From: a virus
Reading direction: 5' to 3' (one strand)
DNA length: 64,000 bases
Virus record (IMG/VR): IMGVR_UViG_3300046328_000506
Span: 1 to 64,000 of that record
Position 1 is the stretch's first letter, and each line of letters begins with the position of its first letter. Shown here piece after piece: positions 4,449 through 63,484 of this stretch. Position numbers and translations under genes: made by a program. Below the pieces are notes generated by a model, which was not told the origin of the DNA, ran no database searches, and was given only the letters and a program-made list of their open reading frames with translations.

Positions 4449-4459
4449 ATTAAACATTA

Positions 4460-4491: not shown

Positions 4492-4497
4492 TAATGC

Positions 4498-4585: not shown

Positions 4586-4595
4586 CTGTAATTTA

Positions 4596-9822: not shown

Positions 9823-12800
9823 TTAGGCTTCACATTTAGTTGTTACAATTCCTAATTCCATTAACTTATCATTCAAGTCTGTATTATCAATCTCATTTGC
9901 TATATCTAATTTAACTCCACCAGTAAACATTAATTCTTTTTTACCAGTCAAGTTATTAGTTGTAGCATACTGATTAATTTCAGCAATTTTATTTTGAACC
10001 CCTTCTAAATCAGCAGTTTCTTCAAACTCTATTGTATTATAGATTGGGTATAAAGACATTGCTATTTTATCTGCATTTGTAGCATAACTATTGATTGATT
10101 TTAAACCTGCTGTAAATACTCTATTGTATGTAGATTTGTCATCACTTAGTTTATAGAGTACACTTACATATCTATTCTTTTCTTCATACTTTTTAACGTA
10201 AGTGTAATTTATAAATTTAGGTAAATCATTCCTAATCTTATCTTTACTATTTGTATAAACACCTTCTAAGAACTTATCAACAGTTAAACTATTCATTATC
10301 TCAGCTTCACTATTAATATATAATTGAGCTCTTATTTTACTGCTTTCTCCAAATTGTACATTATGTCTTGCTGAATAAGTTTTATCTGGATTGAATAGAT
10401 AATACTGTTCTTCAAACAAAGCTAAGTCTGTATCTAATGTACTATCTTTTCCTTTATATTCTTCCAATTGATTTTTTAAGAAATCTGAATAGTTTGTATT
10501 AACATCTACAGACATCACTTCTGCAAAACTACCTTTACCTAAATTGTGAGTTTTACTAATAAGTGTTTGTAAGAATAATGCTTGTTTAAATGCTTGTCCT
10601 AATGCTCCATAGCTACTCAAATTATTATACCTTACATTTATTAGGTTTTTAGTTTCGGGTGTTAAAGCTGTAGCATTAGATAGCTCTAACGTAATCATAT
10701 TATCAAGACTATCTGTTTGTATATTCTCTACTACAAATTTATCATTTTTTAATTTATTATCACCGTTCCGTATTTCTTCTAAGAATTTTGGTAGATATTT
10801 AATAAACTTATACCTATGATTAGTTTTACTTAAATCTAATTTTCTAAGTTCATTTAACCACCTAAAACCTTGTACTTCTGACAGGCTATTTTTATAGCCG
10901 CCTAAGTATTTAGCAATTAAGAATTTATCAAACTCTTTTTCTAATGATTTATAAGCTCCTTCTGATTTAAATTTATTGTACACTGTATCTGCTTTATTCC
11001 TAATCTTATCAAATGTTTCTGATACTTGTGGTAGTTTATGGATAAACATTCCTTTCTTAATCTTATAGTCATAGATAATACCTTTGATAGCTTGTTTTAC
11101 AAAGTTATTGTAAGCTACAAGTTTTCGTGGAGAGAATAGTTTAGCACTATCTTCTTCTATAACTTCTGTAATTGAATCACTATCAGTATTGTTTAGTAAT
11201 TCAGTTTCTAATTGTACTACAGCTTCATCAATATTACCTGTATAACCCAATGTGCTTAATGTGCTTTCAAGTAATCTAATATTATTATACTCATTACCAG
11301 AAGTTCCTTGTAAAGTCCTAAGAATACCATTAGACTTCATTACTTCACTACCTAACTGTTGTAATTGATATAATGAAGCAAATACATATTTTTTAGTATT
11401 TTTCTTTTCTTCATCTGTTAAATCTTCTAACTTAGCAGTTAAACTTACAGGATTGGCATTTGTAGATTTTAAGTAAGATGATATGGTTTCAAACTCACTT
11501 TCACTTTCAAGTTTTTCTTCTTTTGTTCTTCTCCTAATTTCTTTTGCTACAGCTTTCTCAATCTCTTCATCCGTACCTTGTAAAGTATCTCTGAAATTAC
11601 CCATCTTTTCTAATACTCTTTCTCTTATTGCTTTCTCTATTTCAGATTTAGTATAAAGATTAAATCCCCAATTTAATGTTTCAACTGTAGCATTTCCAGC
11701 ATTGTCTGTAGATTCTAATTGAACACTACCATCAGTATCTCTTTTTATTTCTTCCCCATTTTCATCTACTAACTTTTGTATCTTATCTTTTTTAAATAGA
11801 TACAATTTTAGTAGGCTATCTAACGATAGCTTCTTATCAGACTTAGAGAAAATAGAGTTTTTAGCATTTAAAGATTTAATTAATCCTAATGTATAAGGGT
11901 GAACCATTAAATTAGTCATATCTTCTTCATCTATTTGAGCAACGATAGCCCCACCAAATAAATTCCAAGTTTTTTCATTTACGTTTAACCAGCCTAACAA
12001 TGCTTCTTTTGCATTATCTAATGAAGCATTAGAATAGTTTTCTAAGATTTTATTTACTAAGATTAGTTCTTCTCTAAAATATTCTCCATTTTGTAATCTA
12101 TAACCAGCAATAGGTTGGTTAGTATCAACTTTAATTTTATAAGCTGATTTTTCTATTGGTGTTAAAGTTGTATCAGCATCAAATTCTTCTTTTAATTTCT
12201 CTTTTGATATTGGGAATGATGATACAGTAGAAGTATACCCATCTACAACTTCTCCGTTTTCAGTTCTTGCGCCACCAAGAATCGAGTCGTAGACTTTACC
12301 GTTAAAATATATTGGTTGATTAAACTTATCAGCATTTACTACACCACTATCTTTTAATGTTTTAGCTATACGATACATATTGTAATACACCTCTGATAGC
12401 TTTACAAATATACCAACACCAGCTTTACCATCATTGTTATTTTTCTGCACAATCATTTTAGATACAGGTGAGTTAAATCCCATCTTATAACTATCTGATT
12501 GTCTTTGCTCTAATGCTTGTTTTCTTTCTTTTAATTTTTCAAAGTTAATTGGAGAGAATAAAGTTCTAATATTAAAAGGGTCTAATAAAGCTCTTTTCTT
12601 AGCATTAAACATTGTTCTTCTAATAGCTCTCTCAGGGGTATCTTTTCTATTAGTGTCATAAAACTCTAATGTAACCATGTCTCCGTCATTATCTGAACCT
12701 GCAATTAATGTTAATTCAGAAGGTACTAAAACAGTATTATCTTGACTATCATAGAACTCCACAATTTTAGTCATTTGAACTGAGTTATAACCTGTTACAG

Positions 12801-15800
12801 GAATACGTGTTAATTTAGGTTGAGTAGCTAATTTCCATAATTCAAATTCTTCAACTGCTTTATCCATAATAATATCTGAACTAATAGGTTTTCCTTTAAA
12901 TATTTTCTGGTATTTTGCAGTAAACCAATCAATATTGTTTACTTCTCCGAACGTAGTTTTCTCTGGTATCTCAAATTGTGATAATGCTTTTCTTGAAACC
13001 ATGATTTCCATCGGTTCAACTTTATACAAGTCCTTGGTATCATCTACAATTTGTTTAGACACAGCACTTAGTTCGTAATTCTTTAAGTGTTTGATAAATT
13101 CTTTTACTTGCTTATCATCAAGTAATTTACCTGTTGCTATTTCTGTAATCCTTGTAAATGCTAATTCATCTACTTCTATATTTACACCTTCTTTAAATTC
13201 TAATTGGTATCTATCATTTAGTTTAGCAAATTTCCGTCTAACCAATTCCTTCTTAGACATTCTTTCAGTCTTACCATTTACTTCAACATTATACATATTT
13301 ACAAGACCTGTACTATTAGATACAGTTCCCCTAAATCCTTTAAATCTTTGTTTTACTGTAAATGATTTAATAGCACTTGCAATAGCTCCATACATACTAT
13401 TTCTAAGTAGTGGGTGTGAAGAATCAATATTATTTGTAGCAAATAATAAAGTGTTAGAAATATTACCCATATTCCTAAGTATATCTGCTAATTTATCTTT
13501 AAACCATTTCTCTTTTGTAGATTTAATTGCGGCAGCTTTCTCAGTTTCATTCTCAGGTAATATAAATGAACCAGATTTCTTATCTAATGTAATCAATCCT
13601 TGTTCTGCCAAATTACCAATAGTATCGTATATCTCTTTTGTAGTTTGATAGTTTTTACCTAACAATGAGAATATGTAATTTTCTTGGGTAATCATTGCTA
13701 TATCAGATTCAACAGGACTTTGGTATAAACTAATTACAAATCCTCCCATTCTATTATCTATCTTATCTCTATTCCAATCTTCATCAAATTGATTGTTTAC
13801 TTTGTTAGGAGATATTTTAGATGATTTAGGTGTAATGAGTAATCCTGTATGTAAATCTTCATAAGTCTTAGCCGGTTCTGTTATAGTAACACCATCAAAT
13901 TCAATCACTTGCTCTGGGATAGCCTCGTTATTTTTATTTTGTAAACCAGTATCAGGATTGATAGCATTAAACCAATCTGTCAATTTGTCCCAATCTCTAT
14001 CTAATTCATTCCATTTTTGAAACAAGGGACTATTTGTTCCTCCTAATGTCTTCTCTACATAGTTATAAACATATTCATTGCCCAATTCTAATAACTCATT
14101 TGTTAATTTAGAATAAGAGTTCTTTATAAGTTTAGGACTGAACAAACCTCCTGCAATATTTTTTCTTTGTGATTTATCTTGGAATTTATTACCATAAGAG
14201 TTTTGCTCTAAGTTATCATGTAAAGGTGTCATAAAACCTAAACCATCTATCAACTCTATATCAATATCTAATTTAGCATCAACATCTTCATTAACCAAAG
14301 CATTTACTATTACAGCAGTTTGTAATGGTGCAGTAGATTTCTTTAATGTTGTAGGAGTTACTACTTTTTGTTTTGTCTCAGCATCTTTTGTTTCTGTAAA
14401 TCCTTTGTATCTTTCAGCATTATCATATATATCTTTCTTTAAAAATGGTTCTTCAATAGTTGCTATATTACTAAACCTACTTAAACCATTTGGATTATTT
14501 AAGTCTGGTGTTTTATAGTTTGTAGATAAGAAGATAGCACGTTTGATTTCGTCAACTAAATCTTTGTAGTTAAACCTATGCCCATGATATGCCTCATCTA
14601 TAAAGTAACCATTTACTACAGAACTTGTTAAAAAGTCTAATAGTATTGGGTTAATTACTTCTGTTGCAACTTGTGTTTCTACACCATTAACTATAAGTGG
14701 TTTTAATATATTTCTTTTTAAGTTATACCCAACAACTTCAGTAGGGTTCTTTTTACTAAACGCTGCTAAATCTGTAAACTCTGCATTTGTATAGAGTTTC
14801 TTTTCAACTAACTTTTCAATCAAGTCTGCTCCAATAAAATTATACCCAGATTTTACAATCTCTCTTGCATCTTTAAGAATTGTATCTTTTAATTCGTTTA
14901 TTTTATTTGCAGTAATCTCAGCCTTATTCTTACCGTTAAATATACTCTTTATGTTTTTGTGTAAAGAATAATCTTTGGCAATATCAAATCCTATTTTAAT
15001 ATCACTTTTTTGTAGTAAACTCTTATTGTCTTTTGCAAGTTTAGATAGAAGTGTTTCAAATGTACTTAGTTGTTTTTCAGTTAAGACTGACATATTTTTC
15101 AATCTTAACTTTTGTACTTCTTTATATAACTTACTATCTATTTGATTTTTAACTAACAACTTAGCAAAGTTCTCAACTCTTGGTAAAAACTGATTGTAGA
15201 AATAGTTTAAATCTGAATCTACCATTTTCCCTACTTTTTCAGTTAGTAAATCATCATTTGTAAATTTAACTAATAGTTTATCTCCTTTTATTTTCTTTAC
15301 AAATTGTGTAGCTTTATCTGATTTTGGTACAGTTTGAGCATAGTATGAAGTTCCTTTTGAAGCAATTAAAGGTTTTACAAATAACTCTTCCATGTAAATC
15401 TTAGCTTGCTCAAATACAGAAGCATCTACTATTTGCATTTTCTCCCCTGTTTCAGGATTTGTAATAACGTTTAATTCTTTAATAGAATCTTCATCAAAAT
15501 CTATCTCTCCTGTTAATAAAGGATTTTTATAAAAACTATTTGATATAACTTTCGCATTAGTTTCTTCTGCTGTTAAGTCTAAGACTTCCCCAGAGAAGAA
15601 CTTATTTTTAATCTTAAATAATAATGATTGTGCTTTATGTTGTGTATTATTATCTAAGTTTAAGTGCTTAGTATCACCATCAGCAGTCTTAGTAAACTCT
15701 TTCTCCATTTTAGGAATAACTTGCTCGTAGAGCGATGCAAGTCGTTCTACATCTTGGTATTCCATTACAGGAGAACGTCTATTGCTTTTCTCGTTTACTG

Positions 15801-18800
15801 TATCATCACCAAAGCTAAGGTTTTCTTTTAATTGCAATAGACTTGGGTTGTTGATTAAATTAATAACAGTATCATTTGTGTCATATAGTGAAGTAGCTTC
15901 TGTACTATATTCTCCGATTAAATCAGCAATAAATTGTGTATAGCTAAAGCCTAATACTTTCCCAATTGTTGCATTGTAATTATTATCTTTTTTAAGTAGA
16001 GCTTCTTTGACTAAATCTAATGGTAATGATACTCCTAACTTATCTAACATATCAGACAGATAATTTGGCAACTTATCATTAGTTAGCATTTCAGGTATTA
16101 ACGTACCTTTGATTGTATAAGAAGTTTTATTCTCTTGTACCTCAGCATTATTCTGTGTAGCTTTATCTATAATCTCTAACTTTACAACTGGAGTATTGTT
16201 ATAAGTTAGGTAATAAGCATCTTTTTTACCAGTGATATTACTTTCGGTAGGTCTATTTATTATCTTAATACCAGTCTTTTGAAACTCAGCTATTGTAGAT
16301 TTCTTAGGAGTTAAACCATTCTCGTTAGTATAAAGATGATTTATAAGTTTTCCTTTTGTTATAGCTTTTAAGTCGGCAAATAATGTTGTTGCTTTCCCTT
16401 CTTCTATAACTCCTTCTTTAATATCTAAGTTTAAGGCTAATCTTTTTACAGTAGAACCATAAAATGAATATAATTCAGATAAAACATTTGATAGTTTTTC
16501 TTTGTATGAGTCATTAATTACTTCATTAACACCTTGTTCACCCAAAGAATTTTCAGCAACTACACTATAAAAACTGTTATTTGTATTTCCAATAGTTTCT
16601 CCTAAGAAAGTTTTTGGTGCAAAGAACTTGACAAACAAACTAAATGCTGCACTACCACGCTTAAATGCTGTATTATTTACAACTTCTTCAAATGATTTTA
16701 GTATCTCATCATAAGTTGGGTCTATATTTTTACTTGAGTTTTTAGCTTTTTTAAATACTTCATTTAATACAGATTTGCCTTGCATCAAATCTACATATCC
16801 ATTAGTTTTCTTCCACGTTTCTTTTACAGTTTTCCCTTCTTGTACAGTTTCTTTAATATACAAAGGAGTATTTACTAAGTGTTGTATCAATATATCAGAT
16901 TCTGTAGCTTCTTTATTCCTATCTAATAAGTGAAACTCTTTACCTTTTACTTCAACATCACCTTCTTTTGTCAATTCATTATCACTATACAATCCTTCAT
17001 TTGTAACTGTTGGGTAGTTGTAAAGTACAATAGTGTCAAATGGTATAATATCTTCTAATACACCATCTTCCAATTCTACTTTTACAGGAGTAAATAACAA
17101 GTGTAATCTTGCATCAGCTTTCTCATAATCATCATTAATATTTAATTTAGATAAAGCTAACTGTGTATCTTCTTCTAATTCTTCTTCTGTAGGAGCTTCG
17201 CTGAATGTATCTATATGAAGTTGTTTAGCTTCAGCTTTAACTCTATCAACTACTTCTTTGTATTCCTCCAATCTCTCCCCTTTTAGTTTATCAATAGCCT
17301 CTGATAAATCTAATTGAAAATCATCATTAATACCATATTGGAAATCATACAACTTCCTCCTTTGCATCAAGTTAGCTATCTCTAAGTTAATCTCATTGCT
17401 TGTACCATCACCGCTAAATACTTTGTATAGAGATTGATATGCTTTGATTCTTTTCCCTTTATTATTCAATGCTGTATCAATAACTACATCATCACTATAT
17501 TCTTTAACATCAAAGTCTCTGTATATACCAGACTCCAATGTATTAAACAACTCATTGACGTAGTTAGAATCGTTTATAAGACGCTTTCTTATGTTAAGGT
17601 ATATTTCCCTCATCCCAACGTAAAGTCTTCTTATAGCTAACGGTAGACCCCTTAAAATTGAAGTATTAGTTTCTTGGTATGTTGGGTAAGTCTTACCGTA
17701 CCACTGTGCTAATTTTTCTTCAACTTCACGTTCAGTTTGAGTGAACATATTAAACTTAGTCCTTCCTTCATTTATTACATTTTTCCTAAACTGTGGAGAT
17801 ACAGCTTTAAGTACATAGTGAACAGCTTCGTGTGATACAGTTTCACTATCTACTAATCCGTTAAACTCATTTAAAGCAATTACATTTTTATAAACATAAC
17901 CTAATACTTTATCTGGGTCTGAATGGAAATCGTACTCAGCTTGCGTAATTATTCCAGCTTCTAAATCTTTTTGTAACTGTTCATTATTGAAGTTTATTTG
18001 CAACGTAGTTGCCCCAAAAAGATTACGCAACCTATTTGTAGCGTCTAATTTATTTGTAACAAAATTAGGATTACCTGTATTTAGATTTAAAGTTGGTTCT
18101 GTATATTTTTCAGGATTAAGAAGTTTATCAATTTGCTTTATCCTTGTATTTAAGTCTGCAAGTTCTTTATCATTTTGTACAGCTTTCTTTATTTCATCTT
18201 TACTTTTACCTACATTTTCAGTAGTTATTGCGTTAATCCTTGTTTTCTTAACTACACTAATTGTATTTAACTCTTCTTGTAGTTCTTGTGTAGATTGTGT
18301 AGGTTCTACTTCAACTTTTGTAGGAGTATTAACTACAGGTTTCGTCTGTGCTTTTACAGGCTCTTTCTTAAGAGCTGCTGGTTTCTTCTTATTTTCTTCT
18401 GGTATTAAACTATCTATATCTACTAAAAATGTAGGATATGGTTTACTAAGTGATTTAGTTCTATATACTCTATCTAATACTGTAGACATCTGAGTTTTCC
18501 CATCTTTATCTTTATCATTTTGGAATGGTACTAATACAAATGGTTTTTCATGCGTTTCTAATGTACCTAACTTTACAGAACCAAAAACCTTACCTCTTGT
18601 TTGTTGGTCTATTTTATAGTTTGTAGTGTTTGTGTCATCATTAGCCCACATTTTTTTAGCTTGCTCATCTCCTAATATTGTACTTAGGTAATGAATTAAA
18701 TCATATCTGTACTTAGGATTAAAGTCTCTTTTAAAACCTTTTTCTCCATCAGGATTAACTTCACCATAATAACCAATTTGCTTACCTTCATTATCTCTTT

Positions 18801-21800
18801 TGTTTCTTCTTAATGCAAAATCATTAAATATTGCAGTTAAGTGTAAAGCATCTTTTTCAGATAATGTAGCTTTTACAGCAGGAGTTAATACATATAGTTC
18901 TTGTGCGTAAAGAAGCTTGCCTGAATTTTTAAATTTTTCAGGATTATCAGTAATAAACTTTTCAACATTGATAGCTCCATTTGCAGGTATTCTTATCTTA
19001 ACTTTGTTAGTAGTTTCACTATCGGCAAATGATAAAATGTATCCCCCAATATCAAATATAGCTTTCTCCCCACCTAAGTTATTATTTGTGAATAAGTTAA
19101 ATAGTTTGTTTACTAAACCAAATAAATTATTCTTACCCTCAGATTTAACTTTCTCATTATCTAATTTTGATAATTCAGTTTGTAATGCTTGGTAGTATGA
19201 GAAGAATGATTTATCAATTAAACTATCTTTAATATGACCATTTTCAGTTACATTTACTTCTGGTTTATAATCAAATATGTTCTCTTGATAATCTTCTTCG
19301 CCAGTTTTACTTTTTTGTCTTGTTAAGAAATACTCAAATATTTCTTCATCTGTTGTTTGCTTACCTTTAAATTCTGTAAGAGTAGTATCTTCTAACTTAT
19401 CTCCAGAATGTTGCTTTACAAGTAAGTTAGATACAATCTTATAATCATCAAATGATAGATTAGTTTTACCAAGAATAACCATAGAGATATTCTTAGTATT
19501 CATCATATTATTTAACTCTTGTTGTATCATCTCGTCAGTAGCACCTTTCATGTTTACTACAGTCTTGATATAGCCATCTAATTCATTACCATCTATACCA
19601 TGACCAATAAACATTACAGTATTACCAGCTATACCTTTTCCACTACCTGTACCACTACCATAGTTATAATCAGAGTTAGGAATACGTAAAGTATCTACTT
19701 GTGATGCTCTTACTTGATATAGTCTACTATATCCATAATTTCTTTCCTCTAAATATTTCTTATAATCACCAAGAGTTTTATCCCCAACACCTTCTCCTTC
19801 GGAACTATATGAAGGATTTTTAAAGTCTTTGATTTTTAAAGTACCAAATGTTAATCCATCAGTTTGTTTAGCTGTTTGTAATGCTTTACTAAACTGTTTG
19901 AATAAATCATCTTTATATTTTTCATCTTTAAATATTCTATCTTTTGATGAAGTATTAAAAATTTCTCCTTCGGCAGCACCTTTATTCTTCCTTACTACAC
20001 CTAATTCAATTGCAGGTTTATTTGGTTCCATATATTCAATTACATACACATTTTTTGCAAACTCGCTATCTTTACTTGTTTCATTATTGTAAATGATTAC
20101 GTGCTCGTGTGCTTTCTTGTAAGTTAATCTAAATGTACCATTACCATTATATTGAATATCACGTAAAGACACTCCTTTAAAATGTATAGGTGTTAAATCA
20201 AATGATTTTTTATCACGTAAAAATAACTTATTAATGTATTGGTTCTTAGTCTTTATTGCTTCAAGTTCAGCTTGTTCTTGTGATAGATTTAGTGCTTTAG
20301 CTATATCTGTTACATACTCTTTTGATAATGCATGAGAATGAAGTATTAAAGAGTTATTATCTAAAAACTTACTTACAATAGCATTAGCGTTAGCAAGTGA
20401 TATTTTCTTTAAGTATTCTCTATATAAAGCTCTAAACTCAGCTATTACTCTTTTCAAATAATCAATTCTACTTTCGTCTTTTCTAATTGGTAAAAGATTA
20501 ATAGATACTTTTTCAGGAATTTCGTCTCCATTTTCTTCCATAGTAAATTCACCAGACAATACTGATTTCCCATTAGAAACAGCATTGTTTAGCATATCCA
20601 TTATATTTATACTCCCTTTATTTATCTCTGTAAAAGAGTTATCAACCGCTTTTAACAGTTCTTGTTTTTTAGCAGTTAAATTATCTATTTCTTGTTGTAA
20701 CTTTTCTTTTTCTTTCTTTAATATATCAACATCAGCAGTTTTAGTCGTAGCTAATGTAGATAATTTCTTTTGTACTTCATCAAGTTCTACAATTTTTTCA
20801 GCAGTAACTATGTCTTCATCAGCTATAATTTCCTTAGCTTCTTGTTGTAATGCTTTTGAACTATCTATAAACTTTTGACTTTCTTCATCAATTTTATTTA
20901 TTTCCTCAGCTTCTTTTTGTTGTACTGCTTTATCGTTAGTAACTTTTGCTTGTGATTGAACTACTGAATATAAGTTTTGATTTACTGTTGGTTTAGCATC
21001 AACAATTAATCTTTGCATCATTTCAACTACTTGCTCAGGTGTGTATTCTGTACCTGTCTTGTGGTCAATGAATTGTAAAGTGTCTTTATTGAAGTTTACA
21101 ACTAATTCTACAGTATTATCTTTACCATGATTTATAGTTAAGTTAGTAAATGAACCTACTGTATCACTTGGTGTATAATTCTCAACTAATGTATCTACTG
21201 TTAAAGATTGAACACCATTATAATCAACACTAATTTTATCTTTTACTACAACACCATTTTGCTTTACATTTTTTATTGTAGCTTCTATTTTAGAAACTTC
21301 ACCTTCGTTACCTTTTTCTTTATTTAAATTTGTTTTTACGGCATTTAAAGCTTCAATAGTTTCTTCTGCTGTATTTAATCCTGTTTCAGTTACTTGTTCT
21401 GCAACATTTATATTTTCTTCTATTGGTGTTTTTGGTTCGGCAGTAGTTTCTGTTTCTATTGTAGGGTCTACTTCTTCTGCTACTTCATCTGGTTGTGCTT
21501 CATTATTTATTTCAGTATCTAAACCATAGTTACCAGCAATAGATGATACAATATCTTTAATAAACTCATTTCTTTCACCCCTTAACTTTCTAAGTTGTTC
21601 TTGTCTTTCTTTATTTGGCTCTGTTTCTTCATCAGCATATTTAAACAGTTCTTTCTTTGATAGCCTTCTATTAGATTCTTCTCCACCATTTGTCACTAAC
21701 GATACATAATCAATAGCTCTTGTTGTAGCTACTCTTACTGCTCTTAAATATACAGTTGTATCTGGGAATGTTGCACCCTCTGTAATATTAGCATAAATGA

Positions 21801-24800
21801 ATTTTCTTTGACTACCTTGTGAATCATCTACAGTTCTTACTAAAGTAGACAACATAGCGTTGTCTATATCTTGCTCAGGATGTTTACTTCTTATTTGTTT
21901 TACAATAGCATCTACTTGGTCTTTTGTAGAAACTATATACATTAAATCATTTACAGAAGTTAAACCAGATTTATCATTTACAGCTTGCTCTAAGTGTGTA
22001 AAGAATTGTTTTTCTTGTGTAGATTGATTTTGATATTCTATACCAGCATTATCAGATAAATTTGTTGGGTCAGAATAATACTCTATACCATTTGTTTTAG
22101 TAGGAAGTTTATTAGATTTATTCTTAGTACCTAATTTAATACCCCCAACTAATGCTTGTTGTAATAAGTTAAATGTTAAGTAAGAAGTTCTGTATGTTTG
22201 CTCTAACTCATCAGTATAAATCTTTTTAACTTCTACGTTTTGTATAAAAGGGTGAAAAGATATTTTTCTATCTCCACTATTATTTTTACCAATTAACTGT
22301 GTACTATCCCCAAGTAGTAATAGTTTTAGTTTTGGAGTTCTATCTTTGTTGTATTTAATTAGGGCTTTGTTTAAAGCATTTGCTTCATCTGAATTAGCAA
22401 TAGTTCCTTCGTCAATTAATAATAACTCTGAATCAATTGTCTTAGTATCAAGTAGATTTATTATTTCAGCAATAGTATTTTCTTTAAATGGAATACTATT
22501 TTTAGTTAAAGTATTTGCTAAGTTATTACGTTGGGTAATATTTGGGGCAGAGATTGTTGTATTAGCAATATTAGTTAAAGCTAATATTTTAGTAATCATT
22601 TGAGTTTTACCACTACCTGCCATACCTGAAACATTCAATATAAATGAGTTCCAAGTCTTTTCAAATAATGCTTTTTCCGTAGCTTTTTCTAAACTATTTT
22701 TAACTTTACCAAAATTATTTCTATTAGAGTTAATGTAGCCATATACTTGCTTTAATACATTTTCCTGTTCTAATGATGGTAAGAAGTTATCTTTTGTATC
22801 AGTTAAATATTTTTTATTGTACGCTTTGTAAAACTCATTAGTTGGGTAACTAAAGATAGTTTCTAATGTACCAAAGTTTGGTAATAGTGTAGAACTAGAT
22901 TGAGTTTTCACAGAATCAATAAAACTTTCCCACAAAGATTTTTTACTATTATCTTCTTTGTATTGCTCTAATATCTCAACATATAAGTTTTGTACTTCTT
23001 TATCTGTAAAGCTATCGTACAAAAAGTTCTCTAAATCTACGTAAAGTAATGTTGCATTTTTAACTCCTACTTTACCCGATTGTGTTGCTAAGGTTATTGC
23101 TACTTCAATAGCAACAACTCTTTTACTAACTTCTTCAAATAGATTTATAGTCTTTGCATCATCAGCAAATACTCTTCTATCTGTCGTAAGATTAGTTTTA
23201 GCATTAGCAACTGATTTTTTAAGTACATTTACAATACTATTAGAAATGTGATTTACTTTCTTCTTAATAGTTTGTAATCTAATATCATCGTCTTCTTTAA
23301 ATCTATCTTTACCTAAATCTTGTTTGATAGATTTAATTGTACTAATTTTAGTTTGTAAATCATCTAACTTCTTAGTTACAGCTTCAAACGCTTTTTCAGA
23401 AAGTTCTTTTAACTCATTCTTACTTTCAATATTAGCCTCTTTAAGTAACTCATTATTCAAAGTATAGTTTAGATTTAACATAAACCTATTTTGAATAATA
23501 GCATCTTCCCAAGATTTTATTCTATCATTTGCAAGTTGTTCTATTGCAGGGTCTTTTGCTTGTGCCTGTTTAAAGTACAAATCAACTGTATTAGATAAAC
23601 CTGTCGCAGATAAATCGCTTTCACCATTAAATTGAACTGAGCCCATCAATTCCTCTTCAACATCATCTATTTCAGTTTTAGTATCTTCATCATTAGGTTC
23701 TACTTTCTCAACTGATTTGATTAGTTTATTTAATCCCGCAAGTCTATCATATTCTTCTTGCAACTCTTGTGGTAAATCAATTCCTTCTAAATTATCTACA
23801 TCAATATCCTCATAATCAGGATTTAATGTAACAAGATTATTGTAAAGACTATCACTTAATTCTGTTTTTGCAGTATTTAATTCATCTAAAAAGTTTTTCT
23901 TACTTGCAGATTTAGGGGAATTTACTAACATAGATTTTAGCAAATCTTCCCCCTCCAATAAAACTTCATCAAGAGTTCTATCGGCAATCTTAAAGTCTTT
24001 TAATTTCGTGTTTAATTGCCCTACAATCTCTCCTTTTTGTAAGGTAGTAGTTTTGTATTCGCCAATGGTTTTCTTACGCTTAGAATTGAATTGTGTGAGT
24101 TTCTTGGTATCTACTTTCTCCCAATCATTCTCTCTTAATAGCAAGTTATTTTTAATCCACTCTTGCTCTTGTATATCATTTGTTAAGCCAACTATTGCTT
24201 CCCAACCATCTGTACCTTTATAGTTTTCGTATAGTCTCTTTTTATCTAACTTTGATAAGACAGCACCTTGTTGTACTTGGTGTTTTAATAGATTACCATT
24301 ATAAATATCTTTTACTTTGTTTTTTAAAGCACTTTGTTTTAATAATAAATTACTAATTTCAGATAATTTTGCAAGAGTTGGTTGGTTTATAGCATACTCA
24401 CCATCTACTTGCTTTTTAGTATCAATAATTGATTTATCTAATTGCTGTATTCTATTTTCAATCTCCACTACTCTTTCGTAAGAACTCTCTGGATTGATTG
24501 TATCTAATTCATTTTCTAAATCTTGCTTTTCTTTTTGTAATCTATACAGTTTACCATAACCACTTTTTAATACAGTAGCTTCTAAGTTATTAGATTTTAA
24601 TATTTCATCATCTACTTGTTTATCAAACATTAATTGCTTGTCATTTGTAGATAATGTAGCTTGGTCTTTACCTGCAATTCTTGCTTCAATTTCTTTATTT
24701 CTATCTTCATAAGACTTATTAAACAAATCTAAATCTGTTTGGCTAAATAAGTCTTTATTAGTATCTTGTGATTGTATATTCTTTATTTGTTCCTCAGTTC

Positions 24801-26997
24801 TCTTTAGTTCCCCAAAGTTATACAACGCAGCACCTTGTGGGTTTGAAGAGTTACCCAATTCATTGAGGTAATTCTTTGCTTGGTCTGAGGTTAATTGATT
24901 TTTAGATAAAGCATCTTTAATACCTGATTTTTCATACAAATCATAATATGCTTCAATTTTATCTTTTGAAGTTTTATAGTTTGCATAATTTTCAGTATCT
25001 TCTTTATCTTCTTGTGTAGCTAATGACTGGTCTTTTGTATATCTGGTATTGCCTAATACACCTTTGTTTTTTAAATCTTCACCAGTCTTAATTAAATCAT
25101 CTTTTCCGTTAGGATTTTGTAAGATATAATCAATAATAGCATTATCTTGATTTTGAATAGCTTTATCTCTATTCCTAATTTTATAGTTTCTATACCCAGT
25201 TGTAGAAGCTGTACCAATAGCTGAAATGCCAAATGTATCTGCTGCATTATCAAATATTTCCTTCCAAGATTTCTTAGCAAAAGCATTACTACCATCAGCC
25301 ATTGACTTAATAAATCTTTCTTCTCTCTCATTACTTGTTACAAATCCATCAAATACTTCATTGTATTTCTTATAGATTTTATTATCAAAGAAATAATCTC
25401 GGTATGTTGCTTGTAATCCTTCTTGAATCAATTCTTCTGTAGTTTCTTCAACTGCTTCATCAATACCTTGTTGTGCAGTCTTAGCCATCCAAGCTGATTC
25501 AGGTATTGCGTTCCACTTTTTGTGAGCATATTTTACTACATCTCCAATTTTACCTAATGAAAATTTAGCGGATTTAGTTGCAGCATCACCAATTACTTTT
25601 GCGCTTTCTTGTTCAGTTAATTCTCTACCCAATTGTTTTGCGTACAAATCTTTGGCTTTTAGAGAATCTTCTACAACTTTCTTAAATACTTTTTCTTGCA
25701 TCCATTTTGGAGAAATAGATTTTGTTATTCTATTCATCCAATCACCACTCATTAACTTACTTAAACCTGTCGCTACTACACCCATAGCTGCACCAGCCAC
25801 AGCACTTTCTCTTTCTGTAAATCCTGATTGTAATGCAGTTTCATACATCCCTTCTGCTGTAGTTACTCCTGCATATCCTAATCCTAACATTGGATTTACA
25901 GCAGTCAAAGCTACTTGTGGTATAAACGAAGCCATAAATCCACTATAAGCAGATGTGAAGTTTGCAAATGAATCAAATGCTCCCCCTTGTTGGTCTAAGT
26001 TTTTATTAGACTGAATGTTATATCCAAAATCTGTAAATGCTTTACCTAACTTAGATTGTGATGTATTTTTGTTATCCCAAGCAGCACCTAACCAGCTATC
26101 TCCTGTAAAAAATGAATTATCAATTACGTATCCTGTAGCTTTACTCAACCCACTTATTGCATCACTTGCTATATCAACAGGCACATCAAACATTCCACCT
26201 GCAACAGAATCAAAGTGAGATACACCCCAAGCTGATTTTTTATTTACAACTTTTCGTGAATCTTCCCCTTTATCTAAAGGTACAAGAATTGGCTGTCCTG
26301 TATTTTTATCAAATCTATAAGTTCTTGCTGTATCCCAACCTAAATCATCTGGATGAAAGTCTTCTAATACGGGAGTACCATCTTCGTTATATTTTAAATC
26401 TCCCGTTTTTTCATCATATACCCCACGTTTTCTTTGTTTTGTAGCGTTCTTTTTAGCTACTTCATAATAATCTTCTACCTTAGCATATAAACCAGAATTA
26501 GTATCTTGTTTAAATTCAGATTCTATTACTGTATTATATGGTGTACTTCCATCTTCTACTGCACCAGCATTTCTCCATTCTAAACCTGTACCTTTTACAG
26601 ATTCAGGTCTCATATCTATATTACCAACATTTACATCAAATCCATTTTTCCTATTGATATAAGAATCTGGAATAACAAGTGAATTGTTATTAGCAGAAAA
26701 TTCCGATTGACTATATTTCCTATAACCATTATTAGCTTTTTGCCATAAATCTGTAATAGACTTTTCATTATATGGCATACCTAATTCTTCAGCACGTTTC
26801 TTACTTCCTTTCTTAACTTGTTCTAAGGTAGGTAGGAATAATTCTGTTGAAGGATTTTGGTTTAAGTGCTGGTATAAATCAGCATTAGCTCTATCTATAC
26901 TTTTTACTCCATCACTATTTGCAAAGTAACTGAAGTAATCATACTTGTTTTCTGGTTGAAATAATTTATCGTCTACTGGTTTTTTTTCTATTGGCAT
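9823..26997 (-). CDS. Giant polyprotein: SF1 helicase, zincin and crAss-like virion RNA polymerase
   Basis: This single 5,724-residue frame contains, in order: a hydrophobic Gly/Ala-rich part (about 345-410, FIPQVALTAVNPMLG) of the kind that inserts in membranes; long coiled regions; an SF1 helicase with Walker A GMAGSGKT (1458-1465), DEG (1529-1531), a GDSTQL motif III and VATTRA motif VI near 1755-1761; a zincin HEAVH (3056-3060); and the RNA polymerase double-psi barrel, with RIPVTGYNS followed by the catalytic DNDGD (4769-4773). The aspartates of DxDGD bind the catalytic magnesium in multi-subunit polymerases and in crAss-like phage polymerases of the phi14:2 type. The protein is probably packaged and ejected to transcribe early genes; whether it is cleaved is unknown. 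Confidence 0.85.
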   Translation of the reverse strand: MPIEKKPVDDKLFQPENKYDYFSYFANSDGVKSIDRANADLYQHLNQNPSTELFLPTLEQVKKGSKKRAEELGMPYNEKSITDLWQKANNGYRKYSQSEFSANNNSLVIPDSYINRKNGFDVNVGNIDMRPESVKGTGLEWRNAGAVEDGSTPYNTVIESEFKQDTNSGLYAKVEDYYEVAKKNATKQRKRGVYDEKTGDLKYNEDGTPVLEDFHPDDLGWDTARTYRFDKNTGQPILVPLDKGEDSRKVVNKKSAWGVSHFDSVAGGMFDVPVDIASDAISGLSKATGYVIDNSFFTGDSWLGAAWDNKNTSQSKLGKAFTDFGYNIQSNKNLDQQGGAFDSFANFTSAYSGFMASFIPQVALTAVNPMLGLGYAGVTTAEGMYETALQSGFTERESAVAGAAMGVVATGLSKLMSGDWMNRITKSISPKWMQEKVFKKVVEDSLKAKDLYAKQLGRELTEQESAKVIGDAATKSAKFSLGKIGDVVKYAHKKWNAIPESAWMAKTAQQGIDEAVEETTEELIQEGLQATYRDYFFDNKIYKKYNEVFDGFVTSNEREERFIKSMADGSNAFAKKSWKEIFDNAADTFGISAIGTASTTGYRNYKIRNRDKAIQNQDNAIIDYILQNPNGKDDLIKTGEDLKNKGVLGNTRYTKDQSLATQEDKEDTENYANYKTSKDKIEAYYDLYEKSGIKDALSKNQLTSDQAKNYLNELGNSSNPQGAALYNFGELKRTEEQIKNIQSQDTNKDLFSQTDLDLFNKSYEDRNKEIEARIAGKDQATLSTNDKQLMFDKQVDDEILKSNNLEATVLKSGYGKLYRLQKEKQDLENELDTINPESSYERVVEIENRIQQLDKSIIDTKKQVDGEYAINQPTLAKLSEISNLLLKQSALKNKVKDIYNGNLLKHQVQQGAVLSKLDKKRLYENYKGTDGWEAIVGLTNDIQEQEWIKNNLLLRENDWEKVDTKKLTQFNSKRKKTIGEYKTTTLQKGEIVGQLNTKLKDFKIADRTLDEVLLEGEDLLKSMLVNSPKSASKKNFLDELNTAKTELSDSLYNNLVTLNPDYEDIDVDNLEGIDLPQELQEEYDRLAGLNKLIKSVEKVEPNDEDTKTEIDDVEEELMGSVQFNGESDLSATGLSNTVDLYFKQAQAKDPAIEQLANDRIKSWEDAIIQNRFMLNLNYTLNNELLKEANIESKNELKELSEKAFEAVTKKLDDLQTKISTIKSIKQDLGKDRFKEDDDIRLQTIKKKVNHISNSIVNVLKKSVANAKTNLTTDRRVFADDAKTINLFEEVSKRVVAIEVAITLATQSGKVGVKNATLLYVDLENFLYDSFTDKEVQNLYVEILEQYKEDNSKKSLWESFIDSVKTQSSSTLLPNFGTLETIFSYPTNEFYKAYNKKYLTDTKDNFLPSLEQENVLKQVYGYINSNRNNFGKVKNSLEKATEKALFEKTWNSFILNVSGMAGSGKTQMITKILALTNIANTTISAPNITQRNNLANTLTKNSIPFKENTIAEIINLLDTKTIDSELLLIDEGTIANSDEANALNKALIKYNKDRTPKLKLLLLGDSTQLIGKNNSGDRKISFHPFIQNVEVKKIYTDELEQTYRTSYLTFNLLQQALVGGIKLGTKNKSNKLPTKTNGIEYYSDPTNLSDNAGIEYQNQSTQEKQFFTHLEQAVNDKSGLTSVNDLMYIVSTKDQVDAIVKQIRSKHPEQDIDNAMLSTLVRTVDDSQGSQRKFIYANITEGATFPDTTVYLRAVRVATTRAIDYVSLVTNGGEESNRRLSKKELFKYADEETEPNKERQEQLRKLRGERNEFIKDIVSSIAGNYGLDTEINNEAQPDEVAEEVDPTIETETTAEPKTPIEENINVAEQVTETGLNTAEETIEALNAVKTNLNKEKGNEGEVSKIEATIKNVKQNGVVVKDKISVDYNGVQSLTVDTLVENYTPSDTVGSFTNLTINHGKDNTVELVVNFNKDTLQFIDHKTGTEYTPEQVVEMMQRLIVDAKPTVNQNLYSVVQSQAKVTNDKAVQQKEAEEINKIDEESQKFIDSSKALQQEAKEIIADEDIVTAEKIVELDEVQKKLSTLATTKTADVDILKKEKEKLQQEIDNLTAKKQELLKAVDNSFTEINKGSINIMDMLNNAVSNGKSVLSGEFTMEENGDEIPEKVSINLLPIRKDESRIDYLKRVIAEFRALYREYLKKISLANANAIVSKFLDNNSLILHSHALSKEYVTDIAKALNLSQEQAELEAIKTKNQYINKLFLRDKKSFDLTPIHFKGVSLRDIQYNGNGTFRLTYKKAHEHVIIYNNETSKDSEFAKNVYVIEYMEPNKPAIELGVVRKNKGAAEGEIFNTSSKDRIFKDEKYKDDLFKQFSKALQTAKQTDGLTFGTLKIKDFKNPSYSSEGEGVGDKTLGDYKKYLEERNYGYSRLYQVRASQVDTLRIPNSDYNYGSGTGSGKGIAGNTVMFIGHGIDGNELDGYIKTVVNMKGATDEMIQQELNNMMNTKNISMVILGKTNLSFDDYKIVSNLLVKQHSGDKLEDTTLTEFKGKQTTDEEIFEYFLTRQKSKTGEEDYQENIFDYKPEVNVTENGHIKDSLIDKSFFSYYQALQTELSKLDNEKVKSEGKNNLFGLVNKLFNLFTNNNLGGEKAIFDIGGYILSFADSETTNKVKIRIPANGAINVEKFITDNPEKFKNSGKLLYAQELYVLTPAVKATLSEKDALHLTAIFNDFALRRNKRDNEGKQIGYYGEVNPDGEKGFKRDFNPKYRYDLIHYLSTILGDEQAKKMWANDDTNTTNYKIDQQTRGKVFGSVKLGTLETHEKPFVLVPFQNDKDKDGKTQMSTVLDRVYRTKSLSKPYPTFLVDIDSLIPEENKKKPAALKKEPVKAQTKPVVNTPTKVEVEPTQSTQELQEELNTISVVKKTRINAITTENVGKSKDEIKKAVQNDKELADLNTRIKQIDKLLNPEKYTEPTLNLNTGNPNFVTNKLDATNRLRNLFGATTLQINFNNEQLQKDLEAGIITQAEYDFHSDPDKVLGYVYKNVIALNEFNGLVDSETVSHEAVHYVLKAVSPQFRKNVINEGRTKFNMFTQTEREVEEKLAQWYGKTYPTYQETNTSILRGLPLAIRRLYVGMREIYLNIRKRLINDSNYVNELFNTLESGIYRDFDVKEYSDDVVIDTALNNKGKRIKAYQSLYKVFSGDGTSNEINLEIANLMQRRKLYDFQYGINDDFQLDLSEAIDKLKGERLEEYKEVVDRVKAEAKQLHIDTFSEAPTEEELEEDTQLALSKLNINDDYEKADARLHLLFTPVKVELEDGVLEDIIPFDTIVLYNYPTVTNEGLYSDNELTKEGDVEVKGKEFHLLDRNKEATESDILIQHLVNTPLYIKETVQEGKTVKETWKKTNGYVDLMQGKSVLNEVFKKAKNSSKNIDPTYDEILKSFEEVVNNTAFKRGSAAFSLFVKFFAPKTFLGETIGNTNNSFYSVVAENSLGEQGVNEVINDSYKEKLSNVLSELYSFYGSTVKRLALNLDIKEGVIEEGKATTLFADLKAITKGKLINHLYTNENGLTPKKSTIAEFQKTGIKIINRPTESNITGKKDAYYLTYNNTPVVKLEIIDKATQNNAEVQENKTSYTIKGTLIPEMLTNDKLPNYLSDMLDKLGVSLPLDLVKEALLKKDNNYNATIGKVLGFSYTQFIADLIGEYSTEATSLYDTNDTVINLINNPSLLQLKENLSFGDDTVNEKSNRRSPVMEYQDVERLASLYEQVIPKMEKEFTKTADGDTKHLNLDNNTQHKAQSLLFKIKNKFFSGEVLDLTAEETNAKVISNSFYKNPLLTGEIDFDEDSIKELNVITNPETGEKMQIVDASVFEQAKIYMEELFVKPLIASKGTSYYAQTVPKSDKATQFVKKIKGDKLLVKFTNDDLLTEKVGKMVDSDLNYFYNQFLPRVENFAKLLVKNQIDSKLYKEVQKLRLKNMSVLTEKQLSTFETLLSKLAKDNKSLLQKSDIKIGFDIAKDYSLHKNIKSIFNGKNKAEITANKINELKDTILKDAREIVKSGYNFIGADLIEKLVEKKLYTNAEFTDLAAFSKKNPTEVVGYNLKRNILKPLIVNGVETQVATEVINPILLDFLTSSVVNGYFIDEAYHGHRFNYKDLVDEIKRAIFLSTNYKTPDLNNPNGLSRFSNIATIEEPFLKKDIYDNAERYKGFTETKDAETKQKVVTPTTLKKSTAPLQTAVIVNALVNEDVDAKLDIDIELIDGLGFMTPLHDNLEQNSYGNKFQDKSQRKNIAGGLFSPKLIKNSYSKLTNELLELGNEYVYNYVEKTLGGTNSPLFQKWNELDRDWDKLTDWFNAINPDTGLQNKNNEAIPEQVIEFDGVTITEPAKTYEDLHTGLLITPKSSKISPNKVNNQFDEDWNRDKIDNRMGGFVISLYQSPVESDIAMITQENYIFSLLGKNYQTTKEIYDTIGNLAEQGLITLDKKSGSFILPENETEKAAAIKSTKEKWFKDKLADILRNMGNISNTLLFATNNIDSSHPLLRNSMYGAIASAIKSFTVKQRFKGFRGTVSNSTGLVNMYNVEVNGKTERMSKKELVRRKFAKLNDRYQLEFKEGVNIEVDELAFTRITEIATGKLLDDKQVKEFIKHLKNYELSAVSKQIVDDTKDLYKVEPMEIMVSRKALSQFEIPEKTTFGEVNNIDWFTAKYQKIFKGKPISSDIIMDKAVEEFELWKLATQPKLTRIPVTGYNSVQMTKIVEFYDSQDNTVLVPSELTLIAGSDNDGDMVTLEFYDTNRKDTPERAIRRTMFNAKKRALLDPFNIRTLFSPINFEKLKERKQALEQRQSDSYKMGFNSPVSKMIVQKNNNDGKAGVGIFVKLSEVYYNMYRIAKTLKDSGVVNADKFNQPIYFNGKVYDSILGGARTENGEVVDGYTSTVSSFPISKEKLKEEFDADTTLTPIEKSAYKIKVDTNQPIAGYRLQNGEYFREELILVNKILENYSNASLDNAKEALLGWLNVNEKTWNLFGGAIVAQIDEEDMTNLMVHPYTLGLIKSLNAKNSIFSKSDKKLSLDSLLKLYLFKKDKIQKLVDENGEEIKRDTDGSVQLESTDNAGNATVETLNWGFNLYTKSEIEKAIRERVLEKMGNFRDTLQGTDEEIEKAVAKEIRRRTKEEKLESESEFETISSYLKSTNANPVSLTAKLEDLTDEEKKNTKKYVFASLYQLQQLGSEVMKSNGILRTLQGTSGNEYNNIRLLESTLSTLGYTGNIDEAVVQLETELLNNTDSDSITEVIEEDSAKLFSPRKLVAYNNFVKQAIKGIIYDYKIKKGMFIHKLPQVSETFDKIRNKADTVYNKFKSEGAYKSLEKEFDKFLIAKYLGGYKNSLSEVQGFRWLNELRKLDLSKTNHRYKFIKYLPKFLEEIRNGDNKLKNDKFVVENIQTDSLDNMITLELSNATALTPETKNLINVRYNNLSSYGALGQAFKQALFLQTLISKTHNLGKGSFAEVMSVDVNTNYSDFLKNQLEEYKGKDSTLDTDLALFEEQYYLFNPDKTYSARHNVQFGESSKIRAQLYINSEAEIMNSLTVDKFLEGVYTNSKDKIRNDLPKFINYTYVKKYEEKNRYVSVLYKLSDDKSTYNRVFTAGLKSINSYATNADKIAMSLYPIYNTIEFEETADLEGVQNKIAEINQYATTNNLTGKKELMFTGGVKLDIANEIDNTDLNDKLMELGIVTTKCEA

Positions 26998-27016: not shown

Positions 27017-28963
27017 TTAGTCGTATTTTAAAAATGATTGCCCCTTTCCAGACATATCATATTGTTGTGCTTTTTGTAAATTCTTTTTAATCTCTTGTAA
27101 TTCAGTATTATATGTTTGGCGTATTGTTGGGTCTGAAAATGATGGATTATTAATCTCTACTAATACAGGCATAGTTACTGCCCTATCTTTACCTAATGGG
27201 GTAGCTCCAATTAACTCTTCTAATTTATCATCATAAGTTTCATCTCTTTTTAAACCAAAAGCATTTTCTGTTTCTTTATTAATGGTTGTTCCTCCAAATA
27301 ATCCAAAAGCACCGCCTGTACTTACCCCATCTTCTTTTCTATTTGTCTCGCTATTCTTAACTTGTAACAAAGGATTTTTAGCAAACACAGTTTCATCTCC
27401 AACTACCTTAACATCAGCATACACTTTATATTGAATAGTTTGTGGTAAAATTTGTGCTGCTCTTGCGTATTGTGCTCTATTTTCAGCAGGAATATTTTTA
27501 TTCATTGCCATCTTTTTGTAGTTTTCTACTTCAGATAACATTCTTTGATACTCTTCTGGATTTACAGGTATTCTTTTAAGATTGTTTCCTTGTGATACAA
27601 TCCTCATTTTTTCCATATTTAACAATCTGCCTTGCCCATCCTTACCGTTTAATTCTCTACCATTTGCAGCCCTAATAGATACGTTTTGTAAGTCAGATAA
27701 TTTTCTAAATTCAGATTTACCATCAAGTCCTTTCATACGAATAGCATCTTCCATTATCTTATCAAAATCACTACCCATAGGAATACCTGTTTCTAATGCT
27801 CCTATTTTAGCACCCGTATCTTTATCAAACATTGTTGGTACACCTTTCCAATCTAATGCTGCATCGCCAGTAGCTACTAAGTGCATGAAATCTTTTTTCT
27901 TTTCCTCCTCTTCATCCCCAGCACCTCTTGCTTTTGATAATGAAGCATCATAATCTATTGTAGATTTACTACCACTAAATGTAGCATTTTTAGCAGCAGC
28001 AGTTTTAGCTATCATTTGATGTATTCTATCTTGTGCTGCATTATGTAATTCTTCACCTTCTAAATTAGTAGTAGCTAATAATTCTGTATATGCTTGACTT
28101 TGTAGTTGTGCTTTTGCATCATTACCCAATCTAAGATAAACAGACTCCATAGCAGATTTAACTTGACCTAAGTTTGATACATTTTTATTACCAGCACCAT
28201 ATTTCATTAGTTCAGCCTGTCCTTGTGGGGAAGTAAACTCTTTATAAACTTGATTATCAGATTCACTTCCTGTTTCTCCTAACTGTTTAAATGCTGAATC
28301 TACATCTTGTATTACAAGCTCTCTGCCCTTACCAAATTGTAGCCACGTACTTGCTTCCCTATTATTTACATATTGTCCTTCACTATCTCTCCTTGCATAT
28401 AAATCAGAGTAGGACATTGTTTTGTACTTATTTTTATTAGCTGCCAATGTACTTGGAGATACAAACTCATCTTTACCTGTTTCTAAATTTGTAGCTAAAA
28501 ACCCACCTTTATCTGGTATAAATACATACTCATTTAGATTCTTTTTACTTTCAGCAGTCTTTAAACTTTCTTTGGTATATTCATAATCACGTTTACCTTC
28601 ATTTACTTTTTGCATATTTATTTGAGTTTCTGCAAGTAAATGTGAAGGTACGGGTGCATAAGGATTTTTAGAAATATAATCAGCTATTTTAGATTGAGCA
28701 TTTTGTATTCTTTCATATTCAGAATTAACATAGTTACTATGCCCTTCTAATTTAGAAAGAGATTCTTTATCAATAGCAGGAGCAGCAGTCTGAGCAGGTT
28801 GTTGTGCAAACTGATACCACTCGTTTTGAATTAACGGCTGTTGAATATAGTCAGGTGATTGTGTTGGAATATAAACCGTTTCACCCTTTAAATAGCCGCC
28901 TCCTTGCAATTTTGCAACTGCATTATTGGTTGGTAATAATTTAACTTTTTTTAAGGGTTTCAT
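27017..28963 (-). CDS. Cargo-type internal virion protein with KLQGGG leader
   Basis: The 648-residue protein starts in an ATGA overlap with the upstream frame and is 19 bases ahead of the giant polymerase gene. Residues 1-23 form a basic leader ending in KLQGGG (18-23), the motif shared with several neighbouring proteins. The rest is soluble and mostly helical, with a Q/A-rich part (FAQQPAQTAAPA) and a KGEEDEEEEKKKD-like acidic patch near the middle. There is no enzymatic motif. Position and leader suggest an internal head protein delivered with the polymerase. Confidence 0.6.
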   Translation of the reverse strand: MKPLKKVKLLPTNNAVAKLQGGGYLKGETVYIPTQSPDYIQQPLIQNEWYQFAQQPAQTAAPAIDKESLSKLEGHSNYVNSEYERIQNAQSKIADYISKNPYAPVPSHLLAETQINMQKVNEGKRDYEYTKESLKTAESKKNLNEYVFIPDKGGFLATNLETGKDEFVSPSTLAANKNKYKTMSYSDLYARRDSEGQYVNNREASTWLQFGKGRELVIQDVDSAFKQLGETGSESDNQVYKEFTSPQGQAELMKYGAGNKNVSNLGQVKSAMESVYLRLGNDAKAQLQSQAYTELLATTNLEGEELHNAAQDRIHQMIAKTAAAKNATFSGSKSTIDYDASLSKARGAGDEEEEKKKDFMHLVATGDAALDWKGVPTMFDKDTGAKIGALETGIPMGSDFDKIMEDAIRMKGLDGKSEFRKLSDLQNVSIRAANGRELNGKDGQGRLLNMEKMRIVSQGNNLKRIPVNPEEYQRMLSEVENYKKMAMNKNIPAENRAQYARAAQILPQTIQYKVYADVKVVGDETVFAKNPLLQVKNSETNRKEDGVSTGGAFGLFGGTTINKETENAFGLKRDETYDDKLEELIGATPLGKDRAVTMPVLVEINNPSFSDPTIRQTYNTELQEIKKNLQKAQQYDMSGKGQSFLKYD

Positions 28964-62035: not shown

Positions 62036-63484
62036 TTAGCCTATTACAGCCTCTTGCAAAATTGCTGCTTTGTATGGGTTACGTACAATAGCACCTGTAT
62101 ATGTCATCATTTCCAACTGGCTACCTGCAATTGGCGTAGAGATTTGACCTGATGTTTTACCATCTAATCCACCCATACCAATTAATTCACCTGTAAGAAT
62201 ATCAATACCATGATACTTCAATGCCATAATGTTTGGTTCGCCATCTTTCTCGTCAATACCAGTATCAATACAGAAACCGAAACCAGTATCAGGATAATGC
62301 TCTGACAAAACTCTATCTGGCGCAAATGTAATCAAGTTACCACTAAATTCATACGTGTTGAATGTAGTTCCTACTTGCATGCCATCGGGAGATTCAGTTT
62401 CAACGGATTTAACGTTTACTTTCTTTCCAGCAGCCTTAGAGTAATACCAAGCACCAGCGATTGCAGATGTCTTCAATTCACCAATCATAGTTTCGTTGAA
62501 GTGTTCCCATAATGTTTTGTTACAAACAAATGTGAAGTGATTACCTGTAATCTTAGGTGTTTTGTTCGTGATTGATTTGAACATATTATTCAATTGTCTA
62601 ACCGACAAAGAACCTTGTGCATAATCAAATGTATCTGCAAACTTATTGATTTGTGTATAAACACCATCACCTGCGATGATAGGGTTGTTGTTACCGTAAT
62701 CAAATAGTGTTGATTGCAATTGGTCATTTACTGTGCTCTCACCAAAAATCATTACGTTGTTTACAGCATACAACAATTGTTGCATCATGTCTTCACGAAT
62801 TGGCTCCATTTTTACAAGCACTTGCTCATTGTTAAGTGTTGTTGCGTAATACTTTTCTTTCAAAGCATACTCACTTGAGAATGATGCAGATGTTCTTAGT
62901 GTTGTAACATAGTTTACGTGCTCTTCTACGTTAAAGTAAAATCTTGAAGAACCACTTTCAGACAATTCTGGGAAGATAGAATACATATAACGAGTTCTTC
63001 TACCAGTAGTCATAAACAAAGTGTCAATAAACCTTGCAGAATCACCACCTACTAAAGATACTGTGTACTCATACTCATTGTCGTTGATACGTACAGGTGC
63101 TTTGTTTACATACAACAACTGACCATTCTCCAACTTGAAAACGTCATTTTTATTGTAGTATTTCTTTTTAAGATAAACTGTTACCAATTTACCATTATCA
63201 CCTGTTGCTGTACAAGTCCTTGTAAAAGGGATTTCTACAATCTGGTTGTTTTTGATTCTCCAGCGTACTTGCTTAGATGATACAGACAATGTGCTTGAAG
63301 AGTCTTTCGATACTCCAAAGATGTTGCCTAATGCTTGTGTGATGTAAGGAAGGGTGTATTGTGGATATAGCTGCGTAACTTTTTCAAGCCTGTGAATATC
63401 TTGCCCCCACCATTTGTTCCACTCCAGGACTGTTCGCCTGTCAGAACCTAAGTTGTTTACCTCCGATGTACTAAGTAATCTCAT
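62036..63484 (-). CDS. Major capsid protein (HK97-fold, crAss-like)
   Basis: The 482-residue protein sits where the capsid gene of crAss-like phages is expected, between a scaffold-like gene and connector genes. Its length suits an HK97-fold capsid protein with an insertion domain. Visible parts include RWRIKNNQIVEIPFTRT, VYLKKKYYNKNDVFKLENG (a beta-hairpin region) and a C-terminal half with IDTGIDEKDGEPN and YHGIDILTGELIGMGG. There is no enzymatic motif. It should be the most abundant protein of the virion; a hairpin downstream may raise its transcript stability. Confidence 0.7.
   Translation of the reverse strand: MRLLSTSEVNNLGSDRRTVLEWNKWWGQDIHRLEKVTQLYPQYTLPYITQALGNIFGVSKDSSSTLSVSSKQVRWRIKNNQIVEIPFTRTCTATGDNGKLVTVYLKKKYYNKNDVFKLENGQLLYVNKAPVRINDNEYEYTVSLVGGDSARFIDTLFMTTGRRTRYMYSIFPELSESGSSRFYFNVEEHVNYVTTLRTSASFSSEYALKEKYYATTLNNEQVLVKMEPIREDMMQQLLYAVNNVMIFGESTVNDQLQSTLFDYGNNNPIIAGDGVYTQINKFADTFDYAQGSLSVRQLNNMFKSITNKTPKITGNHFTFVCNKTLWEHFNETMIGELKTSAIAGAWYYSKAAGKKVNVKSVETESPDGMQVGTTFNTYEFSGNLITFAPDRVLSEHYPDTGFGFCIDTGIDEKDGEPNIMALKYHGIDILTGELIGMGGLDGKTSGQISTPIAGSQLEMMTYTGAIVRNPYKAAILQEAVIG

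Follow-up and report, generated by a model that had tools for sequence, protein, structure and literature searches.

How does an enzyme cargo in the megadalton range leave a phage particle in order, when folded proteins do not fit through the exit channel? The question is raised here by a giant gene of a gut-type crAss-like phage, located at 9823..26997 on the minus strand (as are the other cargo, muzzle, and capsid genes given below) of a 64,000-base stretch of DNA, hereafter the window, which comprises positions 1-64,000 of IMG/VR record IMGVR_UViG_3300046328_000506 (130,171 bases in whole). In phage crAss001, gp47, gp49, and gp50 are virion proteins, and the tail has constrictions of less than 50 Å (PMC10172136). 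The giant is read here, with a probability of roughly 60%, as the virion RNA polymerase cargo of a phage related to the Zeta group of crAss-like phages, in which cargo chains would be coupled end to end through cysteines and one of these links would have been replaced by a peptide bond.

Helicase, zincin, and polymerase in the giant frame

The original prediction placed a helicase, a zincin, and a virion RNA polymerase in one uninterrupted frame of 5,724 residues. The open reading frame (ORF) does run from ATG to stop through 5,724 codons of the standard code with no internal stop, and GMAGSGKT (residue 1458), HEAVH (3056), RIPVTGYNS (4731), and DNDGD (4769) all lie where they had been placed; Pfam, profile, and blastp matches support the presence of the three domains in a single chain. 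Residues 1446-1769 (21691..22662) are assigned to a superfamily 1 (SF1) helicase by Pfam scores above cut-offs (AAA_30, 30.7 bits against 27; AAA_19, 29.3 against 25.1; Viral_helicase1, 24.8 against 21), by a match of the Zeta ORF A profile to residues 1375-1569 (E=1.1e-7), and by motifs I (GMAGSGKT), II (IDEGT), III (GDSTQ), V (SQG), and VI (TTRA). Upstream, residues 366-692 (24922..25902) resemble the N-terminal part of Zeta ORF A (hhalign, E=6.7e-5).

The zincin-like domain spans residues 2936-3168 (17494..18192), with HEAVH at 3056 and EEKLAQ downstream. It was matched by a profile of nine crAss zincins at E=8.9e-9, compared with 0.07 for the best of 20 shuffles, and the giant's composition alone would yield an expected 0.03 HExxH motifs. 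These matches identify it as a homolog of the zincin in other crAss polymerase-block proteins.

The RNA polymerase catalytic region occupies residues 4731-5010 (11968..12807), where RIPVTGYNS, GSDNDGD (4767-4773), GKAGVG (4857), and DNAKE (4994) follow one another and the DxDxD catalytic motif stands in a conserved context. Residues 4731-4786 align with a Delmidovirus giant protein around its GSDFDVD (blastp, E=1e-5), and a profile of the Zeta RNA polymerase family matches residues 4708-5065 (E=1.9e-6); on motif order and these matches, the giant carries a crAss virion RNA polymerase region. Single-protein scans of IMG/VR returned no relatives of the window polymerase, a search with the motif GSDNDGDM returned an unrelated protein as its sole match, and phmmer and profile searches of the PDB gave no match. 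The DNDGD form of the motif is also found in Azobacteroides phage ProJPt-Bp1 (L065:10709-21154).

The closest counterparts of the giant are two consecutive genes of Zeta phages. Through the polymerase regions of MT835470 and MT835492, 24 Zeta-type loci were gathered from IMG/VR, and the helicase profile matched 21 of the 23 records searched; an alignment of the helicase was nowhere sufficiently conserved to serve in a collection scan. In the 20 kb around the helicase match, examined in 20 records, ORF A carries the helicase and is followed directly by ORF B with the polymerase (genetic codes 4 or 15), and the same order is found in MT835470 (standard code) and MT835492 (code 15). Since the two ORF A matches (366-692 and 1375-1569) and the ORF B match (4708-5065) are collinear along the giant, the giant corresponds to A and B in one frame. 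Its domain order, from N-terminal region through SF1 helicase and zincin to polymerase, would then be that of other crAss phages, here in one chain.

What is new is the joining of helicase and polymerase in one frame; giant fused polymerases as such are already known in Crassvirales, with genes reaching about 6,000 residues according to a review (PMC10136315). The expectation of a much smaller, separate polymerase in some crAss phages holds for phi14:2 (2,180 residues) and crAss001 (2,412 residues). The helicase profile had no match in crAss001, phi14:2, cr114, or ProJPt, which indicates that crAss polymerases can work without a helicase; judged by these profile matches, the presence of a helicase in this block is characteristic of the Zeta type. 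That the helicase feeds DNA to the polymerase is offered as a hypothesis.

Breaks within the catalytic motif were also seen among the relatives. The polymerase ORF of MT835470 is interrupted by about 1 kb between GSD and TDIDKAY (L013:11967-13005), and cr108_1 (L077) is broken at the same place, GSD / LYDIDK. Interrupted DxDxD motifs have been reported earlier for the Zeta group (PMC7886860).

Cysteines at polypeptide boundaries

Among the 5,724 residues of the giant there is just one cysteine, at position 5722, third from the C-terminus (...TTKCEA; codon 9832..9834). The next ORF (4596..9761), a cargo protein of 1,721 residues, likewise has a single cysteine, at residue 3 (MPC...; codon 9753..9755). 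In relatives, these parts are divided among two to five chains. Across the window and 16 non-Zeta genomes, which represent several architectures, a cysteine is present on both sides of 20 of 21 polypeptide boundaries, and at none of 17 N-termini of first members and none of 17 C-termini of last members. When the same number of cysteines was placed at random, not one paired boundary arose in 300 trials.

The pattern extends to the Zeta-type loci, where ORF B is followed by two further proteins, Z1 and Z2. Counting scored ends only, a cysteine is found at the C-terminal end of A (20/20), both ends of B (N, 21/21; C, 22/22), both ends of Z1 (N, 22/22; C, 21/21), and the N-terminal end of Z2 (21/21), and at none of 17 C-terminal ends of Z2. 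Control ORFs of 250-700 residues from the same loci have a terminal cysteine at 2 of 130 N-ends and 10 of 130 C-ends. The compared genomes are related and the boundary counts are not independent events; independent support comes from the observation that each architecture obeys the rule.

These architectures differ in where chains begin and end. In phi14:2, gp78 ends in its sole cysteine, gp77 has just two, one at residue 3 and the other next to last, and the single cysteine of gp76 is again at residue 3. The three chains of Steigviridae come with two cysteine pairs; Suoliviridae, with the first two members fused (XY/Z), and Intestiviridae, with the last two fused (X/YZ), have one pair, as do Fpv3 and ProJPt-Bp1. 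No pair is present at the fusion points themselves (XY in Suoliviridae, YZ in Intestiviridae, and AB in the window). The rule includes L014 and L044, in which ORF A is split and an extra pair lies at the split. As a control, the breaks in interrupted ORFs of one polypeptide mostly lack cysteines; the exceptions, L033 and L037, apparently reflect readthrough into the intervening sequence. The chains of crAss001 conform to the rule although they are encoded on opposite strands, and the rule therefore acts at the protein level; an artefact of overlapping or stop-start sequences as the cause of the pairs was rejected on the same ground.

Terminal cysteines that number none, one, or two according to chain position point to a linear chain, the only arrangement that we could think of that fits. 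In the virion, the C-terminal cysteine of each cargo chain would bond with the N-terminal cysteine of the next, most likely as a disulfide, giving a linear train that could thread the narrow tail with the order and stoichiometry of its chains fixed and whose chains would be separated by reduction in the cytoplasm after entry. In this phage, the coupling of helicase to polymerase would be a peptide bond, leaving one cysteine link, to the 1,721-residue protein. By analogy with the virion RNA polymerase of phi14:2, which is present in virions and carries out rifampicin-resistant early transcription, the polymerase would transcribe early genes in the cell, and the same incoming DNA is probably also the substrate of the helicase. 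The broader proposal, that the polymerase complex of crAss-like phages is packaged as an ordered, covalent cysteine-to-cysteine train that is reducible and evolutionarily interchangeable with peptide-bond fusion, is drawn through the tail as a single chain, and is uncoupled in the reducing cytoplasm, seems to us slightly better than an even bet. Ligation at an N-terminal cysteine was set aside as the mode of joining, the cysteine being mostly residue 3-5 and not the first. No description of cysteine or disulfide coupling of crAss cargo was found in the open-access literature.

Alternatives to end-to-end coupling

The giant may be an ordinary crAss polymerase, one more arrangement of a known transcription block, whose terminal cysteines have another joint role or none. 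Fused proteins of 4,272-5,443 residues are common in Suoliviridae, and the size of the giant lies within that given by the review cited above. This reading leaves unexplained the boundary cysteines, their absence at the ends of the block, and their change with fusion and splitting, and it is considered unlikely.

A second alternative accepts the joint and changes its chemistry, with the boundary cysteines forming a non-disulfide link, such as a metal site common to both chain ends or a docking contact that depends on the thiols. The pairing pattern tells which ends meet and not how they are held, and the ends of B and Z1 resemble short hydrophobic strands. A metal site is unlikely given one cysteine per end and no conserved histidine or second cysteine in the ends, and other disulfides have been resolved in the crAss001 virion (PMC10172136). 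We regard such a link as rather improbable.

The position of a zincin with HExxH and a downstream glutamate between helicase and polymerase raises the idea that the single chain is a precursor, cut by its own zincin into the two enzymes. No support was found for the peptidase trimming suggested in the original prediction. The zincin is kept where chains are already separate, as in crAss001 gp47, and naturally separate chains carry boundary cysteines that the interior of the giant lacks. A cysteine at each real chain end in split relatives and none inside the giant argue against cleavage of the helicase from the polymerase ahead of ejection, and the precursor is judged improbable.

The fusion might also be an assembly artefact in which the stop codon between two separate genes was lost. 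The gene is present in one assembly only; IMG/VR searches found no independent assembly of it, and a 99.99% identical contig stops short of the gene. A lost stop would leave a cysteine pair inside the frame, and the first 5,721 residues contain no cysteine. The gene also has no long repeats, and an artefact appears very improbable indeed.

Several points weigh against the proposed reading as a whole. The inter-chain bond is inferred from cysteine positions rather than observed, as is its chemistry. The cytoplasm of Bacteroidota is reducing, which would leave the virion or the outside of the cell as the place where the bonds form. A motif scan of this record found no thioredoxin-like CxxC protein; thioredoxins are annotated near the polymerase block in some crAss genomes. 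The sequence does not allow the fusion point to be located, with residues ~1,600-4,700 matching relatives at the zincin only. The polymerase fold has no structural backing here: the check for double-psi barrels around DNDGD was run as low-confidence AlphaFold models followed by Foldseek, with a predicted local distance difference test (pLDDT) score of 35 for residues 4060-5259 modeled with 10 distant relatives and 57 for a Zeta homolog, and no Foldseek match fell below E=0.02. The polymerase ORF of crAss002 (L073:14088) lacks the N-side boundary cysteine of other Intestiviridae, possibly because its start was wrongly set or its first exon is interrupted. Finally, Carjivirus gp47 (L071:3588-6161), upstream of the block, ends in a sole cysteine (KQSCR) next to a protein with none, which may extend the coupling to another cargo protein.

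If coupling of chains end to end is correct, it offers a simple and testable answer to the ordered exit of cargo, and this phage is a natural experiment in which one coupling has been turned into a peptide bond. The cysteine code at boundaries persists throughout the most abundant phages of the human gut and disappears precisely at chain fusions, and a boundary cysteine predicts true polypeptide ends in genomes rich in introns and alternative codes.

Phage affiliation, neighboring genes, and known systems

The record belongs to Crassvirales, with a muzzle gene (51768..56174; PF25731, E=1.7e-57), a major capsid gene (62036..63484; PF23898, E=4.3e-12), and portal and TerL genes identified by phrog_6547 and phrog_6681, which supports the crAss-like context of the original prediction. 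Within the phage collection, the capsid protein matched MT835470 and MT835492 only (28-31% identity), and the best TerL match was MT835470 (27%). Together with the helicase in the polymerase block, common to the record and the Zeta group, these pairwise capsid and TerL matches, rather than a tree, place the phage as a deeply diverged crAss-like virus, probably near Zeta. At 130 kb, the record is below the 145-192 kb of Zeta genomes (PMC7886860) and may be incomplete. A 42.9-kb contig from another metagenome (L011, L012) is 99.99% identical to the window at 52-64 kb and beyond, which shows that the phage was present in at least two samples.

The 1,721-residue protein matches by blastp both the zincin ORF (E=3e-11) and the 1,529-residue ORF (E=2e-4) of the MT835470 locus and, on these matches, combines the two Zeta proteins that follow ORF B (Z1 and Z2), while also corresponding to phi14:2 gp76. 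Its HEFAH motif at residue 446 (8412-8426), read as zincin-like through homology to the separate Zeta zincin ORF, and HEAVH in the giant suggest that the cargo has two zincin-like domains. Three ORFs upstream of the giant (27017..32552), of 648, 284, and 688 residues and without any cysteine, may be cargo proteins, judging from gene order. Elsewhere in the window, a mosaic ORF at 45634-47013 combines DUF192 and DUF6321 and is similar over residues 323-383 to the cargo protein gp45 of crAss001 (E about 2e-8). In L003 (2-1693 and 1716-3665; about 82-86 kb in its own record), each of the two subunits of ribonucleotide reductase has a match to intein splicing domains, and one of them also to a LAGLIDADG domain.

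Among known systems, the Zeta block (MT835470, MT835492, and IMG/VR records) is the most similar to the window in order, with the N-terminal region, SF1 helicase, polymerase, zincin protein, and last protein, and its helicase and polymerase profiles match the giant. It differs in that, in records with readable frames, helicase and polymerase are separate ORFs whose facing ends each bear a cysteine; alternative codes and interruptions of the polymerase ORF are frequent there, whereas the window has one standard-code frame. Phage phi14:2 gp77 (KC821624), the polymerase of the 2021 Nature structure paper, shares with the giant the motif succession R-x-P, DxDxD, GKxGVG, DNAK; phi14:2 also has cysteines at its boundaries, and its gp76 resembles the C-terminus of the 1,721-residue protein. 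Its block differs in comprising three chains (gp78, gp77, and gp76) without a helicase and in having DFDID in place of DNDGD. The fused giants of Suoliviridae (cr7, 5,443 residues; cr118, 4,946; cr50, 4,774; cr114, 4,272) combine zincin and polymerase in one chain with a C-end cysteine and a partner with an N-terminal one, as in the window, but the P-loop motif was not found in them and cr114 had no helicase-profile match. Two phage groups separate from crAss also eject a giant single-chain polymerase: the virion RNA polymerase of N4 (Schitoviridae), which shares an HExxH motif with the window (PMC12633501) and contains no cysteine, and the RNA polymerase of P23-45, which differs in being fused to the tape measure protein (PMC10770324).
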